Source: Tamlana sp. I1 (lineage in GTDB: Bacteria; Bacteroidota; Bacteroidia; Flavobacteriales; Flavobacteriaceae). Taken from it: a stretch of DNA of 64,000 bases. How positions within the stretch are numbered: the stretch's first letter is position 1; each line of letters begins with the position of its first letter. Below the pieces are notes generated by a model that was given only the letters and a program-made list of their open reading frames with translations, had not been told where the DNA came from and ran no database searches. Below are positions 6,551 through 64,000 of this stretch, one piece after another. The translations under genes and the position numbers were made by a program. The DNA lies in NCBI RefSeq assembly GCF_015355625.1, contig NZ_JACLAF010000008.1, positions 124,001-188,000 of the forward strand, read 5' to 3'.

Positions 6551-6639
6551 GGCGGTAAGGTTTAGCCCCGATAGTAGCGGCATCCTTTTTTGTTTTTCTC
6601 AAAAAAGATATAGCGGATAGCGGGATTAGCTACAAATTA

Positions 6640-51290: not shown

Positions 51291-51525
51291 TGATATTTTC
51301 ATCTAAAAAAAAACACAATTAATTGACGTAATGAAATAAGATTAATCTTATATTTATGTGGTAAAGTGTTCAATGTTAAATATCTAGTAATATTTGTATT
51401 TGATTGAGTTACAGTCCTAAATTCAACTTAGCTTGTAAAAATATTTTAAAATTATAGATTCTTTAAAATATGGAGAAAGCCGAAAATCCGTGATAGAGTA
51501 GGCGTAATATATAGAAATTAAGAAA

Positions 51526-57946: not shown

Positions 57947-58360
57947 TTATTTTCGGGCTAAAAATTCTTTTGCAGTCAAAACAGGAATTTTTGAGTTTTT
58001 AAAGTCTCTTTTATTTCGTGTGATTATTATGTCTATTTGATTTTCAAAAGCAGAGTAATATTGTAATCTGTCTTCAAAATCTGGAAAATTATCATCACTC
58101 AAGGCTAATTCTGTAATCTTATCATCTAAACTTAATAACTCAACAAGCACTTTAAATTTTCTTAATATTTCTCTAGCTTCTTTTGCTGATTTGAGTTTTG
58201 AAAGAATATAATTTGTATTTGCAAAGGTTAAGGATGAAATGGTGAGTTCTAGTTCTTTTTTGTCCGCACGAGAAAATAAATCGGCAGCCTCATCATAGAA
58301 TTTATCTCTTTTTGAAAGTAAATCTATTACGATGTTGGTGTCAATCAATAATCTGCTCAT
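57947..58360 (-). CDS. vapC: PIN-domain toxin (VapC-like)
   Basis: A 137-residue ribonuclease-type toxin. The four acidic residues of the PIN domain are visible: Asp in LLIDTNIVIDLL, a second acidic residue near the middle helix, DFEDRLQYYSA and Asp in IITRNKRDF. Such toxins cleave RNA, often tRNA. It overlaps its antitoxin gene by 4 bp. This gene pair is a separate module from the preceding island. Confidence 0.9.
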   Translation of the reverse strand: MSRLLIDTNIVIDLLSKRDKFYDEAADLFSRADKKELELTISSLTFANTNYILSKLKSAKEAREILRKFKVLVELLSLDDKITELALSDDNFPDFEDRLQYYSAFENQIDIIITRNKRDFKNSKIPVLTAKEFLARK

Positions 58361-58602
58361 TTGTATTTCTCGATTAGGTAATCAGTATAAGCATCTTTTA
58401 CATCAAAATCTTCATCAAGTGTAATTACTCCACTTAAACTTTCAACAAGAGGTGTTATTTCTGTTGAGTTCTTTGTCCGTTTAGTGAGCGTAGTTAAATA
58501 AGATTCGATAAGTTTAGATAAGCTAATGTTATTTGATTTGGCATATTTTTTTGCACTTTCAATAATTGCTTGGTCTAAGCTCAATGTCAATTTTTTATCC
58601 AT
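58357..58602 (-). CDS. DUF6364-type antitoxin
   Basis: An 81-residue protein with a ribbon-helix-helix-like start (MDKKLTLSLDQAIIESAKKY, then NNISLSKLIESYLTTL) and an acidic C-terminal tail that would bind the toxin. The pattern matches the DUF6364 family of VapC partners in Bacteroidota. A promoter and inverted repeat lie directly upstream, suggesting autoregulation. Confidence 0.85.
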   Translation of the reverse strand: MDKKLTLSLDQAIIESAKKYAKSNNISLSKLIESYLTTLTKRTKNSTEITPLVESLSGVITLDEDFDVKDAYTDYLIEKYK

Positions 58603-59031: not shown

Positions 59032-59070
59032 TTTGGAAAAACCAAAAACCAAAAACCAAACTCCAATCTC

Positions 59071-59202
59071 CGGGTTAGGGATAGCAGTGGAAATCCTTTT
59101 TTTGCTGAATAAATTAAAAGACCATTGTGTTAACTAGGGTTTAGTTTACATACGAAAACCTAGAGGCATAACAAAAAAAGATTGCAACGAATAGCCCGAC
59201 CC
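59071..59202 (+). ncRNA. Candidate structured RNA
   Basis: Outer stem GGGTT-A-GGG (59072-59080) pairs with CCC-GACCC (59195-59202) with one bulged A and one G-T wobble that pairs only as plus-strand RNA. An asymmetric internal loop (ATAGCAGTGGA / GCAACGAATA) follows, then a 12-bp stem AATC-C-TTTTTTTG (59092-59104) / CAAAAAAAGATT (59172-59183). The apical part has its own hairpin CTAGG/CCTAG. From memory, GGGATAGCAGTGGAAATCC and GAATAGCCCGACCC recur in Flavobacteriia; the Rfam Flavo-1 motif is a candidate identity that I could not check. Confidence 0.7.
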
Positions 59203-59272
59203 TTGGGTAACCCCCAAAATATAGCTTTGAAAAAGGCATTCATAAAGTTTTCAAAAAAAAACTAAAAAAAAG

Positions 59273-59303
59273 TTTGTAATTCAATTTTTTGTTTTTCATT
59301 TGC
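59273..59303 (+). promoter_or_regulatory. Likely promoter of the speA leader
   Basis: TTTG (59273-59276), an 18-bp spacer and TTCATTTGC (59295-59303), one mismatch from TAnnTTTGC. Transcription would start near 59309 and give a leader of about 258 bases before speA. Confidence 0.55.
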
Positions 59304-59340
59304 ACTCTATTTAGCTGAACAAATTGAACACTGTTTCTAT

Positions 59341-59474
59341 GTTCGGGCTTTTGAAAATTAGGAAGTCATATTCAAAAGCAGCTTACCGATTAAGCGACCG
59401 AATTTTAAAGCTAACTTCCGTATCACCCATATATGCGATCCAGCATAAATACGGCTTTGTGCCCACTACCGAAC
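59341..59474 (+). ncRNA. Candidate structured 5' leader of speA
   Basis: A closing stem GTTCGG (59341-59346) / CCGAAC (59469-59474) encloses three hairpins: GCTTTTGAA / TTCAAAAGC (59347-59355, 59371-59379), GCTTA / TAAGC (59381-59395) and CCGTAT / ATACGG (59418-59423, 59449-59454) with inner TATGC / GCATA. An upstream GAACA (59326-59330) can pair with TGTTC (59340-59344), which competes with the closing stem. The layout suggests a switchable leader. It is a prediction from pairing by eye. Confidence 0.6.
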
Positions 59475-59566
59475 GCGAAATTCAAGTTTGATTCCATTTA
59501 TTTTTTATTATCTTAACACGTAGTTAATCTACTATTTACATCTTTAACTTTTTTAAAAACAGTACA

Positions 59567-60964
59567 TTGAATACTAAATATATTGATTTAATTAATCAAA
59601 CTTTTGATTTCCCGCAAGAGGAATTTAAAGTTGATAAAGGCGAATTGCATTTTCATGATATTGACCTCATGCAACTTACAAAACAGTACGGCGCACCTTT
59701 AAAATTCACCTACTTACCGCAAATTTCTAACAATATTAATAAGGCGAAAAGTTGGTTTGCTAATGCGATTGAAAAGTACGATTACAAAGGCAAATACAAT
59801 TATTGCTATTGTACAAAAAGCTCGCATTTTAAGCATGTTTTAGACGAGGCTTTGAAGAATGATATTCATATTGAAACCTCTTCGGCGTTTGATATTGATA
59901 TTATTGAAAACCTTAAAGCCGAAGGTAAAATTACCGATGAAACCTTTGTAATTAGCAACGGTTTTAAGCGCGCACAATACATTACAAATATTGCACGATT
60001 AATTAATAACGGCCACAAAAATGCGATTCCGATTATTGATAATTACGAGGAAATTGATTTGCTTTCGCAAGAGATTACAGGCAAATTTAATGTGGGGATT
60101 CGAATTGCTTCGGAAGAGGAGCCTAAGTTCGAGTTTTATACCTCTAGATTAGGTATTGGTTATAAGAATATTGTGCCTTTTTACAAAAATCAAATCGCTA
60201 ATAATGATAAAGTTGAGCTTAAAATGCTACACTTTTTTATTAATACAGGCATTCGAGATAACGCGTATTATTGGAACGAATTACACAAATGTTTGAAGGT
60301 ATACACAAGCCTGAAAAAGATTTGTCCGACTTTAAATAGTTTGAATATTGGAGGTGGTTTCCCGATAAAGGCGTCTTTAGGTTTCGATTTTGATTATGAA
60401 TATATGGTTGATGAAATTGTAAATCAAATTAAATTAACCTGTGATGCTGAAGGGGTAGAAGTGCCAAATATTTTTACCGAATTTGGAAGTTTTACCGTTG
60501 GCGAAAGTGGCGGCGCGATTTACGAAGTGCTTTACCAAAAACAACAAAACGATCGTGAGAAATGGAATATGATAAACTCATCGTTTATCACCACATTGCC
60601 AGATACTTGGGCTATAAATAAACGTTTTATTTTACTGCCATTAAACCGCTGGCAAGAAAGTTACGAGCGTGTGTTATTAGGTGGTTTAACCTGCGATAGT
60701 GACGATTATTACAATAGCGAGCAGCACATGAACGCGATTTATATGCCAAAATACAATAAAGATAAACCCTTATATATTGGCTTTTTTAATACAGGCGCTT
60801 ACCAGGAAACCATTGGTGGTTTTGGTGGTTTGCAGCACTGCTTAATTCCGTCGCCAAAGCATGTTTTAATTAACAAAGATGCCGATGGAAATTTAACAAC
60901 AACATTATTTAGTGAACAACAAAAAAGTGAAGACTTACTTAAAATTTTAGGTTATGAGCAATAA
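59567..60964 (+). CDS. speA: Biosynthetic arginine decarboxylase
   Basis: PLP enzyme of the alanine-racemase/group IV decarboxylase fold converting arginine to agmatine. Length is 465 residues. The first codon is TTG (59567), chosen because NTKYIDLINQTFDFPQEEF matches the usual N-terminus and no ATG lies nearby. The PLP lysine is in YCYCTKSSHFKHVL; SLNIGGGFPI and TEFGSFTVGESGGAIYEV carry phosphate-loop and cofactor residues. It is shorter than the enterobacterial enzyme. It overlaps speB by 11 bp. Confidence 0.93.
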   Translation: MNTKYIDLINQTFDFPQEEFKVDKGELHFHDIDLMQLTKQYGAPLKFTYLPQISNNINKAKSWFANAIEKYDYKGKYNYCYCTKSSHFKHVLDEALKNDIHIETSSAFDIDIIENLKAEGKITDETFVISNGFKRAQYITNIARLINNGHKNAIPIIDNYEEIDLLSQEITGKFNVGIRIASEEEPKFEFYTSRLGIGYKNIVPFYKNQIANNDKVELKMLHFFINTGIRDNAYYWNELHKCLKVYTSLKKICPTLNSLNIGGGFPIKASLGFDFDYEYMVDEIVNQIKLTCDAEGVEVPNIFTEFGSFTVGESGGAIYEVLYQKQQNDREKWNMINSSFITTLPDTWAINKRFILLPLNRWQESYERVLLGGLTCDSDDYYNSEQHMNAIYMPKYNKDKPLYIGFFNTGAYQETIGGFGGLQHCLIPSPKHVLINKDADGNLTTTLFSEQQKSEDLLKILGYEQ

Positions 60965-61892
60965 GACCTACGCTGGAATTCCAGAAGAATTTGGGAAATT
61001 AGAAACCGCAAAAATCGTTTTAATTCCCGTGCCTTATGATGGTACAAGTACTTGGCAAAAAGGTGCCGATAAAGGCCCTGATGCGTTTTTAAATGCTTCG
61101 GAAAACATGGAGCTTTACGACATTGAAACGGGTACAGAAGTGTATCAGCAAGGTGTGTTTTTAGCAAATGCGGTAACCGAAAACAGCTCGCCAGAAGCCA
61201 TGGTTGAAGCGGTACATCAAGCAACTAAAAAATACATTAAGAAAAATAAATTTGTTACCATTTTTGGTGGCGAGCACTCAATTTCTATTGGTACCATTCG
61301 TGCTTTTAACGAGATGTACCCAAGTTTAACGGTGTTGCATATTGATGCCCATGCCGATTTACGTAAGGAATACGATGGCACAACTTGCAATCATGCTTGT
61401 GCGGTTTACGAAGCGAGCCAAACCACGAATTTAATTCAGGTGGGAATCCGTTCGATGGACGTGATGGAAAAAACCGTTATGGATGAAGAGAAAACCTATT
61501 TCGCTCATGAAATGGCTGTTGATGATACGTGGATGGATTCGGCTATCGATCAAATGACCGATAATGTATTTATCACCTTCGATTTAGATGCCTTCGACCC
61601 ATCGATTATGCCAAGCACAGGCACCCCAGAACCAGGCGGTTTACTGTGGTACGAAACTTTAGATTTCTTAAAACAAGTGTTTGCCGAGAAAAATGTAGTA
61701 GGCTTTGATATTGTTGAACTGTGTCCGAATAAAAAGGAGAAGTCATCAGATTTCCTAGCAGCAAAATTGTATTATAAAATGTTAAGTTATAAATTTATGG
61801 ACGAAGCCATAGATGACGATTACGATAATGCCTTCGATAATTCAAAACAAAAAAATAACGCATCAAAATTTACTGAAGACGATGAGTACTAA
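60954..61892 (+). CDS. speB: Agmatinase
   Basis: Ureohydrolase of 312 residues that splits agmatine into putrescine and urea. Dinuclear manganese ligands are in FGGEHSISIGTIRA, HIDAHADLRKEY, and FDLDAFDPSIMP. The C-terminus extends into a disordered acidic tail (DDDYDNAFDNSKQKNNASKF). It starts inside the speA end and its end overlaps the deoxyhypusine-synthase-like gene by 11 bp, so all are translationally coupled. Confidence 0.95.
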   Translation: MSNKTYAGIPEEFGKLETAKIVLIPVPYDGTSTWQKGADKGPDAFLNASENMELYDIETGTEVYQQGVFLANAVTENSSPEAMVEAVHQATKKYIKKNKFVTIFGGEHSISIGTIRAFNEMYPSLTVLHIDAHADLRKEYDGTTCNHACAVYEASQTTNLIQVGIRSMDVMEKTVMDEEKTYFAHEMAVDDTWMDSAIDQMTDNVFITFDLDAFDPSIMPSTGTPEPGGLLWYETLDFLKQVFAEKNVVGFDIVELCPNKKEKSSDFLAAKLYYKMLSYKFMDEAIDDDYDNAFDNSKQKNNASKFTEDDEY

Positions 61893-62856
61893 AGGACCAA
61901 TTTCGCAATTTATAGAAAAACATTATTTACATTTTAATGCTGCTGCCTTAGTAGACGCTGCAAAGGGTTACGAGGCACAGTTAGAATCTGGAGCTAAAAT
62001 GTTAGTGTCGCTTGCGGGTGCGATGAGTACCGCCGAATTAGGTAAAAGTTTTGCCGAAATGATTCGTCAAGATAAAGTGCAAATTATTTCTTGTACAGGG
62101 GCAAACCTTGAAGAGGATATCATGAATTTGGTAGCACACTCACACTATAAACGTGTGCCAAACTACCGCGATTTAACCCCTCAAGAAGAGTGGGATTTGT
62201 TAGAAAAAGGCCTAAATCGTGTAACCGATACCTGTATCCCAGAACATGAAGCGTTTAGACGTTTGCAAAGTCATATTGTTGAAATTTGGAAAGAAGCTGA
62301 AGCGAAAGGCGAACGCTATTTACCACATGAATTCATGTACAAAATGTTATTGTCTGGCGTTTTAGAACAATACTACGAAATCGATTTAAAAGATTCTTGG
62401 ATGTACGCTGCCGCGGAAAAAAACTTGCCAATTGTTTGCCCAGGATGGGAAGACAGTACTATGGGGAATATTTTTGCAAGCTACGTTTTAAAAGGCGAGT
62501 TGAAAGCAAGCACCATGAAATCTGGAATTGAATACATGACCTTTTTAGCCGATTGGTACACCGATAATTCTGAAAATGGTATTGGTTTCTTCCAAATTGG
62601 CGGTGGTATTGCTGGCGATTTCCCAATTTGTGTAGTGCCAATGCTATATCAAGATATGGAGCGCACCGATACACCATTCTGGAGCTATTTTTGCCAAATA
62701 AGCGATTCTACAACCAGTTACGGGTCGTATTCTGGAGCGGTGCCAAACGAAAAAATCACATGGGGAAAATTGGATATTAACACACCAAAATTCATCATAG
62801 AAAGTGATGCGACTATCGTTGCACCGTTAATTTTCGCCTACCTTTTAGGGCAATAG
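61882..62856 (+). CDS. Deoxyhypusine synthase-like protein, probable homospermidine synthase
   Basis: A 324-residue member of the deoxyhypusine synthase superfamily from the ATG at 61882 (MSTKGPISQFIEKHYLHF); the frame extends upstream into speB. The NAD region has MLVSLAGAMSTAELGKSF and the active-site lysine region reads AVPNEKITWGKLD. True deoxyhypusine synthase modifies eIF5A, which bacteria lack. Related bacterial enzymes make homospermidine, the main polyamine reported for Flavobacteriaceae. Its place after speA and speB supports this. Confidence 0.88.
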   Translation: MSTKGPISQFIEKHYLHFNAAALVDAAKGYEAQLESGAKMLVSLAGAMSTAELGKSFAEMIRQDKVQIISCTGANLEEDIMNLVAHSHYKRVPNYRDLTPQEEWDLLEKGLNRVTDTCIPEHEAFRRLQSHIVEIWKEAEAKGERYLPHEFMYKMLLSGVLEQYYEIDLKDSWMYAAAEKNLPIVCPGWEDSTMGNIFASYVLKGELKASTMKSGIEYMTFLADWYTDNSENGIGFFQIGGGIAGDFPICVVPMLYQDMERTDTPFWSYFCQISDSTTSYGSYSGAVPNEKITWGKLDINTPKFIIESDATIVAPLIFAYLLGQ

Positions 62857-62858
62857 CG

Positions 62859-64000
62859 ATGGACTCAAAAAAAATTGAAAATATAGAACTTAAGTACCTA
62901 ACTGTTGATGACTTTGAGGAATTAAAAGCAGCGACTTTAGAGTCGTATGCTGGTGTGCTTAATTCATATTGGAAAAAACATCACATACAAGATTTAACCA
63001 CCATGTTCCCAGAGGGACAGGTGGTTATTAAAATTGATGGTGATATTGCCGGCTGCGCATTATCGTTAATCGTAGATTACGATAGTATTGATGACGAGCA
63101 TACTTATGAAGATATTATTGGTGGCGAATCCTTTAAAAATCATAATGCCGACGGCGATGTTTTATACGGCATCGACGTTTTTATAAAGCCGGAATACAGA
63201 GGTTTACGCTTAGGACGCCGTTTGTATGATTATAGAAAGGAAGTTTGTGAAAATTTAAACTTAAAAAGTATTGTTTTTGGTGGTAGAATGCCAAATTACC
63301 ATAAGCATAAAGATTTAACACCTAAAGAATATATTGAAAAAGTAAAACGTAAAGAAATTCATGATCCTGTTTTAAATTTTCAAATTTCTAACGATTTTCA
63401 TCCGGTTCGTGTTTTAAAAAACTATTTAGAAGGCGATACGGCATCGAACGAGTACGCTGTTTTAATGGAATGGGATAATATTTCATATACCAAACCTAAC
63501 AAGAAAGCGAGTACTGTTAAAACCGTTGTGCGATTAGGTTTAATCCAGTGGCAAATGCGTCCGTATAAAGGATTGGAAGACTTAATGGAGCAAGTGGAAT
63601 ATTTTATTGATAGCGTTGCTGCTTATCGATCGGATTTTGCCGTGCTTCCCGAGTTTTTTAATGCGCCTTTAATGGCTGCGTTTAACCATATGCATGAACC
63701 CGATGCCATTAGAGAGCTGGCCAAATTTACCGAAACCATTGTAAATCAGCTTAAACAGTTGTCCATTTCTTATAACATCAATATCATTTCAGGGTCTATG
63801 CCCGAATTGGTAGACGATAAGTTATATAATGTGGGGTATTTGTGCAGACGAGATGGTAGTGTAGAACGTTACGAGAAAATACATGTAACGCCAGACGAAG
63901 CTAAAGTTTGGGGGATGCAACGTGGTAACAAACTGCAAACTTTTGAAACCGATTGTGGTAAAATTGGCATCTTAATTTGTTACGATTCGGAATTTCCAGA
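62859..64000 (+). CDS. GNAT acetyltransferase-nitrilase fusion, 3' partial
   Basis: The frame opens 2 bp after the previous stop and runs to the window end, at least 380 residues. Residues about 1-210 are a GNAT domain (YGIDVFIKPEYRGLRLGRRL). From about 225 comes a carbon-nitrogen hydrolase domain whose triad is visible: Glu in VLPEFFNAPL, Lys in YEKIHVTPDE and Cys in ILICYDSEFP. Nitrilase-family amidases include N-carbamoylputrescine amidase, so with the GNAT part a role in polyamine or amide metabolism is plausible. The C-terminus is outside the window. Confidence 0.9.
   Translation, partial: MDSKKIENIELKYLTVDDFEELKAATLESYAGVLNSYWKKHHIQDLTTMFPEGQVVIKIDGDIAGCALSLIVDYDSIDDEHTYEDIIGGESFKNHNADGDVLYGIDVFIKPEYRGLRLGRRLYDYRKEVCENLNLKSIVFGGRMPNYHKHKDLTPKEYIEKVKRKEIHDPVLNFQISNDFHPVRVLKNYLEGDTASNEYAVLMEWDNISYTKPNKKASTVKTVVRLGLIQWQMRPYKGLEDLMEQVEYFIDSVAAYRSDFAVLPEFFNAPLMAAFNHMHEPDAIRELAKFTETIVNQLKQLSISYNINIISGSMPELVDDKLYNVGYLCRRDGSVERYEKIHVTPDEAKVWGMQRGNKLQTFETDCGKIGILICYDSEFP

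Follow-up and report, generated by a model that had tools for sequence, protein, structure and literature searches.

The speA polyamine operon in the window, the whole stretch of 64,000 nucleotides analysed here, is preceded by a leader in which a folded RNA and a short open reading frame (ORF) occupy the same letters. From comparison with relatives, we regard this anatomy, an RNA plus an ORF that are conserved and linked to speA, as close to certain. The bases of the predicted junction and pseudoknot fall within the first 33 codons of the 55-codon leader ORF. With a probability of roughly 55%, we read the leader as a bipartite cis-regulatory element of the operon that would act by the full mechanism proposed below.

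Upstream of speA, a sizeable region contains no long ORF and is followed by a promoter-like sequence and the gene itself. In the window sequence, a leader of ~258 nt (59309-59566) separates a plausible Bacteroidetes promoter from speA; promoter, leader and operon all lie on the plus strand. The likely promoter (59273-59302) comprises TTTG at 59273-59276 and TTCATTTG at 59295-59302, in keeping with the Bacteroidetes promoter consensus. The position of TTTG is fixed among relatives, with 87 occurrences in 139 sequences beginning 27 to 23 nt 5' of the leader start codon. We infer that the transcript probably starts near 59308-59311. An initial annotation of this DNA had placed a long leader between a likely promoter and a TTG start of speA. 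Both claims hold: the leader is conserved in relatives, and across 19 aligned loci speA starts with TTG in eight and with ATG, at the identical position, in 11. Missing from that annotation were the leader ORF (59324-59491) and the pseudoknot.

The folded RNA

The stability of the fold is ordinary, with folding energies that are not exceptional for the whole leader (z = -1.28) or for 59309-59422 (z = -1.09), so comparison had to decide. Conservation and covariation among the aligned sequences, not folding energy, carry the case for the leader. An alignment thinned to 86 of 139 sequences, all below 90% similarity to one another, indicates that the 5' part of the mRNA (~59342-59419) is a three-way junction of helices P2, P3 and P4 locked by a pseudoknot. 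Over the named structure, 95.4% of 2494 alignment cells are paired, against 30-57% for slid partners used as a control, and 19 of the 29 pairs change on both sides. None of 500 shuffles matches the observed structure values on any of five measures.

P2 (59342-59402) encloses the other two helices and pairs TTCGG (59342-59346) with CCGAA (59398-59402); it is 98.4% paired, with changes on both sides in three of five pairs. P3 (59347-59379) pairs GCTTTTGAA (59347-59355) with TTCAAAAGC (59371-59379), is 93.9% paired and shows both-side change in all nine pairs. The same holds for all five pairs of P4 (59381-59395; 90.9% paired), formed by GCTTA (59381-59385) and TAAGC (59391-59395). The pseudoknot (59361-59419) joins GGAAGT in the P3 loop (59361-59366) to ACTTCC (59414-59419) and is 98.3% paired. 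Two of its six pairs change on both sides and two are invariant across the 86 sequences; on the speA tree, it accounts for eight both-side changes.

The folded region probably starts at 59311, where TTAGCT (59311-59316) can pair with AGCTAA (59409-59414) to form P0, a helix with one base common to the pseudoknot. P0 is present in the minimum free energy fold of 59309-59422 and is paired in 89.1% of 515 cells, with both-side change in three of six pairs; 38 and 55 of 500 shuffles match its counts of pairs and types, respectively. A possible further helix, P1', between GTTT (59333-59336) and AAGC (59408-59411), is 96.2% paired; all of its pairs vary on one side only, and the tree holds no both-side change for it. 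P0 and P1' compete for AGC at 59409-59411 and are mutually exclusive. An alternative pairing of GAACA with TGTTC would in turn compete with P2. A switch among the P0, P1', GAACA/TGTTC and P2 pairings is possible.

A simple parsimony count on the speA tree (135 sequences) gives 98 branches with a both-side change, versus 4-25 for slid partners; branches that break a pair are not fewer than in the control (77 versus 68-134). Ranked by mutual information in 139 sequences, many base-pairable positions of the later helices stand near the top, beside unpaired upstream positions. High-scoring covariation also occurs at positions -11 to -3, which are not base-paired and were left out of the count; we attribute this signal to an upstream motif that in some sequences sits one base or one codon out of register.

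The initial annotation had described three hairpins enclosed by a 6-bp stem and had named loss of the stems in orthologous leaders, along with a leader that leaves expression unchanged, as grounds for rejecting its proposal. Two of the hairpins, P3 and P4, covary, and P2, P3 and P4 are conserved; the enclosing stem is not. On the conservation criterion the proposal therefore survives, while its closing stem falls. In that stem, GTTCGG (59341-59346) would pair with CCGAAC (59469-59474), a motif that only 3 of 139 relatives carry in the ORF's 3' portion (CCGAA or CCGAG in 12 of 139). The covarying partner of TTCGG is CCGAA at 59398-59402, not the one at 59469-59474. The alternative GAACA/TGTTC pairing, which had been set against the closing stem, is 83.5% paired with weak covariation in the 86 sequences, and the upstream side reads GAAC in 116 of 139 sequences, GAGC in seven and neither in 16.

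The leader ORF and its peptide

The leader ORF (59324-59491; 55 codons; MNTVSMFGLLKIRKSYSKAAYRLSDRILKLTSVSPIYAIQHKYGFVPTTEREIQV) runs from a TTG start to a TGA stop. Its start codon stands at the same place in all 144 copies and is TTG in 99, ATG in 34 and GTG in 11. Twenty loci were selected on DNA similarity without regard to coding, and in each of them one frame stays open through the element, reaching 53 to 80 codons counted from the start. The ORF is present at every one of the 143 loci fetched. The 139 ORFs were delimited from stop to stop, which makes the absence of internal stops in 139/139 true by construction; in Flavobacteriaceae, none of the listed protein matches to profile A1, obtained with stops read through, contains a stop.

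Codons 34-55 (59423-59491), the 3' half of the ORF, bear peptide-level constraint. Among the 83 of 139 ORFs with exactly 55 codons, 34 disjoint pairs give a pN/pS of 0.22 in frame, against 1.83 and 1.95 in frames +1 and +2, and none of 500 column shuffles gives a value as low. Over 1247 overlapping pairs from the same set, pS is 0.61 and pN 0.23 in this half, while pS is 0.17 in codons 7-33 and 0.75 in speA codons 61-210. In codons 2-6, pS falls to 0.018 with a pN of 0.24, which points to constraint on the RNA, not on the peptide. By this pattern along the codons, selection preserves chiefly the RNA in the 5' half of the leader ORF and the peptide in the 3' half. On these patterns we take the ORF to be translated. 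Judged by comparison, it has what characterizes a leader peptide (uORF): it is conserved, short, under peptide-level selection and close 5' of speA.

The window peptide ends in I-Q-V, followed by UGA. This codon would be read by RF2. It closes 129 of 139 leader ORFs. In the background, which comes mostly from speA neighbourhoods rather than whole genomes, UGA ends only 9 of the 177 long ORFs at 112 of these loci and 4 of 39 ORFs in the window. The peptide finishes with I or V in 129 of the 139, encoded by ATT, ATC, ATA, GTT or GTA; since several codons are used, the residue and not just the base seems to matter. Codons 34-55 mostly end in [ILF]-x-[IV]-UGA across the 139 ORFs. Classes of C-terminus with this end, distinguished by eye, are SQHxYGFxPTTxxQIQ[IV], QYKLCFVPKxQYQIMI, RLAYWLNPIRI and FxPSTxFIFRI; the main class has ~20 conserved residues.

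The sequence AATCAAACT within speA (59598-59606) complements, base for base, AGTTTGATT at the leader stop (59485-59493), and the relatives' consensus sequences at the two sites are also largely complementary, without co-variation. The leader end and speA are more complementary than shuffled ends (-5.9 versus -4.4 kcal/mol). Co-evolution of the leader end and speA codons as pairing partners is unsupported, as own pairs beat mispaired ones in 59 of 122 cases and the mean pairing probability is 0.09. A pairing is conceivable, since both sides are conserved, and the constraint on UGA might be partly due to it.

Linkage to speA and copies elsewhere

The arginine decarboxylase-like speA gene (59567-60964) begins with TTG, aligns with its orthologues and matches NCBIfam TIGR01273 with E 5e-47, below the curated cut-off. 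It is followed by the agmatinase gene speB (60954-61892; NCBIfam TIGR01230, above cut-off), a gene of the deoxyhypusine/homospermidine synthase family (61813-62856; Pfam PF01916, above cut-off) and a GNAT plus carbon-nitrogen hydrolase gene (62859-64000, continuing past the window end and complete in the extended sequence; Pfam PF00583 and PF00795). On the minus strand at 57947-58602, upstream of the operon, two small ORFs overlap, one with a weak VapC-like match below the family cut-off; they are possibly a toxin-antitoxin pair.

In 140 of 143 loci, speA lies 3' of the leader on the same strand, 2-205 nt after the leader stop and 55-110 nt after it in 124 of the 140. The loci comprise 20 from the nucleotide search and 30 and 93 from later searches; they hold 144 copies and 139 distinct sequences, some places having been fetched twice. 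The element is thereby a conserved, cis-linked structured RNA 5' of metabolic genes, as in riboswitch classes, with small-molecule binding putative. In the window, the spacer to speA spans 75 nt (59492-59566), and a terminator search of its plus strand found no intrinsic-terminator-like site.

Some leader ORFs end at or near speA itself. That of L313 (G218:C3:983826-983948) ends on the speA start codon (ATGA), and three ORFs that have no C-terminal motif (L017, L128 and L121, the first two from one genus) end 36, 30 and 2 nt 5' of the gene. These ends suggest translational coupling. The argument rests on few lineages, because the strict motif is also absent from five ORFs (L086, L105, L117, L118 and L139) that end 71-88 nt before speA; their ends are near-motifs, about one residue off.

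A nucleotide search with the leader (E <= 1) gave matches in 58 of 60 relatives, mostly short and many of them to the AT-rich 3' end. Of the 30 loci taken from it (L002-L031), L021, L022 and L024-L031 were dropped as short or weak matches. Clear matches to the 5' part remain at 20 loci, including the window, with 71-91% identity (window excepted); the 5' ~110 nt are closely similar in all, and speA lies downstream in 19, the exception being L015. At the protein level, profile A1 matches in 196 of 397 sampled Flavobacteriaceae genomes (E <= 0.01), which were fetched in part only, and a speA-like gene is found in 269 of the 397. The two coincide in 187 genomes, that is, 187 of the 196 with the leader peptide and 187 of the 269 with speA. 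Six of the nine peptide-positive genomes without speA at the threshold used have peptide matches with E > 1e-4, and another of the nine, G197, is an incomplete genome with its match at a contig end. Named hosts, for 80 of 129 GTDB loci, include Tamlana, Algibacter, Winogradskyella, Olleya, Lacinutrix and Bizionia.

An RNA model detects the element in 145 of 299 genomes of the family. The remaining 82 of the 269 speA genomes have no peptide match; of 17 speA-upstream regions hand-picked from the listed members of this group, 14 gave no RNA match with filters off and three gave weak ones (E < 0.001). One of these three, L325, combines the RNA match with an ORF ending in KQIQI and UGA. Another region, L329, retains LRKKVWPLLPLIV, which resembles the C-termini of L136, L306 and L307, with no RNA detected. 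Samples of the order (246 genomes) and the class (198), each with family members in it, yield a single match outside Flavobacteriaceae, a weak one away from speA (G490/L161, another family of the order, E 0.0072); we treat it as chance, as no speA is among the ORFs within 3.1 kb. The single match in the class sample (1/198) is the window's own genome. The distribution is bounded only roughly by these samples, since they hold family members and were searched with stricter filters.

The element also precedes genes other than speA. In L015 and L119 (same genus, speA not detected) and in L120, it stands before a pair of small genes, IVDY92 and S74; the same pair follows it in L301, and IVDY92 alone in L298. 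Neither protein has a Pfam match. Homologues of both, judged by comparison and by eye, occur in L314 at 64430-64753 and 64768-64989 (window numbering), just past the window and directly after the GNAT/hydrolase gene. Since they adjoin the operon in the window genome, the element may have stayed with the remainder of the operon after loss of speA, a history reconstructed from gene order. Other second copies precede S74-like secreted proteins, in L299 and L300 by tblastn and in L311 and one copy of L152 by eye. L152 (G206:C3:97287-97866) holds two divergent, back-to-back copies, one before speA and the other before the small S74-like secreted protein.

Eight ORF-bearing copies lack an adjacent speA (L015, L119, L120, L152, L298, L299, L301 and L311; for L298, L299, L301 and L311, the stop and the C-terminal residues were identified by eye). 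UGA is kept in three of them (L119, L120 and L301), against 127 of 135 speA-linked ORFs, and the C-terminal motif in two (L299 and L301); the RNA scores high in several. The two parts can thus occur separately: the RNA is retained where the peptide C-terminus is lost (L015 and L119), L300 (G135:C1:2671052-2671175) has the RNA with its pseudoknot (E 2.5e-9) and no leader ORF before an S74-like protein, and L329 has the C-terminus with no detectable RNA.

Known systems, proposed mechanism and alternatives

No Rfam 15 family matches the leader; three matches with E no higher than 10 reach just 14.6-15.3 bits, where the gathering scores are 50-70. Twenty A1 members of the leader peptide gave no NCBIfam match and two single Pfam matches (E 0.11 and 0.13). 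Across Rfam, Pfam, NCBIfam and literature listings, no described family corresponding to the leader was found; none of the listed papers concerned control of the speA-like gene in Flavobacteriaceae, and one narrow literature search gave nothing on arrest peptides in the phylum Bacteroidota. The leader represents a new family within a general type of control that is already known, with an unusual overlap of RNA and coding sequence. The sole Rfam family to reach its gathering score near the leader is Flavo-1 (RF01705), a Bacteroidetes RNA at 59064-59205, ~100 nt upstream of the leader, and it is a separate element, not part of the leader. The window holds two Flavo-1 RNAs, at 6560-6631 and 59064-59205, the second with a long insert (65 unaligned bases) and ~70 nt upstream of the leader promoter, and a DUF805b motif RNA (RF02914) at 51470-51504, above its gathering score.

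The closest parallels come from other phyla. The speF-orf34/SpeFL leader of Salmonella and E. coli likewise combines a short ORF 5' of a polyamine-synthesis decarboxylase with leader RNA structure, translation being predicted in our case; according to PMC6386406, translation of orf34 is required for speF expression and prevents Rho termination. That system differs in its gene (ornithine decarboxylase, against a speA-like gene here), its phylum and its length of 34 codons. Its inhibitory structure sequesters the speF ribosome-binding site and the role of Rho has been shown, whereas here the pseudoknotted fold lies inside the ORF (PMC6386406). The E. coli mdtU-mdtJI leader shares a polyamine-related gene and a uORF that is most conserved at its C-terminus; mdtU, whose stop codon lies 106 nt upstream of mdtJI, has 34 codons and serves a spermidine exporter, and the passages of PMC7815308 consulted make no mention of a pseudoknotted RNA inside the ORF.

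By analogy, the UGA and C-terminus of our leader resemble those of termination-arrest leaders, namely TnaC (UGA, RF2) and SpeFL (RF1), as described in PMC8429421. TnaC of tnaCAB also ends in UGA; its nascent C-terminus keeps RF2 from acting, and the ribosome stalled there protects against Rho termination (PMC8429421). It has 24 residues and controls tryptophan catabolism, and arrest is putative in our case. SpeFL inhibits RF1 (same source), whereas the leader here ends in UGA; both likenesses are by description. The downstream-peptide motif (RF01704) is another riboswitch candidate with a short conserved coding sequence. According to PMC2864571, it is cyanobacterial and nitrogen-related, and its RNA is the 5' UTR of the ORF; our leader has no Rfam match.

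In the mechanism we propose, a signal, most likely a polyamine, agmatine or arginine, would stabilize the RNA fold and turn leader translation off. With the leader untranslated, speA would be silenced, probably as Rho terminates transcription, or coupled initiation is lost, in the spacer. Translation of the leader would unfold the RNA, and the nascent C-terminus would make the ribosome pause at UGA, or slow its termination there, leaving the spacer open and speA expressed. Folded RNA and ribosomes on the leader ORF would be mutually exclusive, since the start codon lies just 5' of the junction and would be enclosed by P0 should that helix form; the fold should hinder leader ribosomes because the start codon is 18 nt before P2, 7 nt after P0 and close to where the transcript presumably begins. 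A positive effect of leader translation on speA expression we infer by analogy with orf34/speF and mdtU and from the lineages in which the motif is lost and the ORF ends on the speA start or beside it. The ligand and the direction of the signal are guesses, of which end-product repression by a polyamine is the simplest. A more specific form, a two-input switch in which a pseudoknotted RNA aptamer in the coding sequence gates leader translation and the nascent peptide gates termination at a fixed UGA, is a tentative proposal.

The initial annotation had suggested RNA-level control of the operon by a polyamine, arginine or another ligand. The structured RNA, its pseudoknot and compensatory changes, and the near-constant linkage to speA lend strong support to RNA-level control; a pure metabolite riboswitch is only one possible reading of it, because relatives do not conserve the closing stem and because the leader doubles as an ORF under peptide-level selection. 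A riboswitch with leader-ORF translation as its output, the peptide serving as a carrier of ribosomes with no sensing or pausing, would suit a compact pseudoknotted three-way junction at the mRNA 5' end, the RNA without an ORF in L300 and the survival of the RNA after loss of the C-terminus in L015 and L119. We consider it doubtful given the strong selection on the C-terminus and UGA, and the C-terminal class that persists in L329 with no RNA detected. That selection (UGA in 129 of 139, the [ILF]-x-[IV] end, ~20 conserved C-terminal residues in the main class) would be explained if the leader were solely an arrest peptide of the SpeFL or TnaC kind, its nascent chain sensing a metabolite and its ligand-free RNA merely rearranged by ribosomes; inhibition of RF1 and RF2 provides precedents (PMC8429421). 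Such an arrangement is unlikely: a ribosome stalled at the stop has already passed the RNA farther 5', which would then refold in its wake; codons 2-6 are under RNA and not peptide constraint (pS 0.018, pN 0.24); and there are several different C-terminal classes.

The RNA could instead bind a regulatory protein in place of a small molecule, and a trans-acting factor could bind all copies, since copies also precede IVDY92 and S74-like genes. Complex pseudoknotted junctions are more typical of ligand binding, and there is no candidate protein, which makes a protein site improbable. A chance fold without function in an AT-rich leader, as the ordinary folding energies (z -1.28 and -1.09) would allow, is hardly credible: it is refuted by the covariation, and the linkage and coding tests also stand against it.

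The bipartite cis-regulatory leader is our preferred reading. Its fold inside a conserved ORF offers a candidate, straightforward to test, both for a riboswitch that responds to a polyamine, agmatine or arginine and for a peptide that arrests termination, and the extra copies before two small uncharacterised protein families offer a handle on their role. If the two-input form is true, the leader would represent both a new riboswitch class and a new arrest-peptide family for polyamine synthesis.
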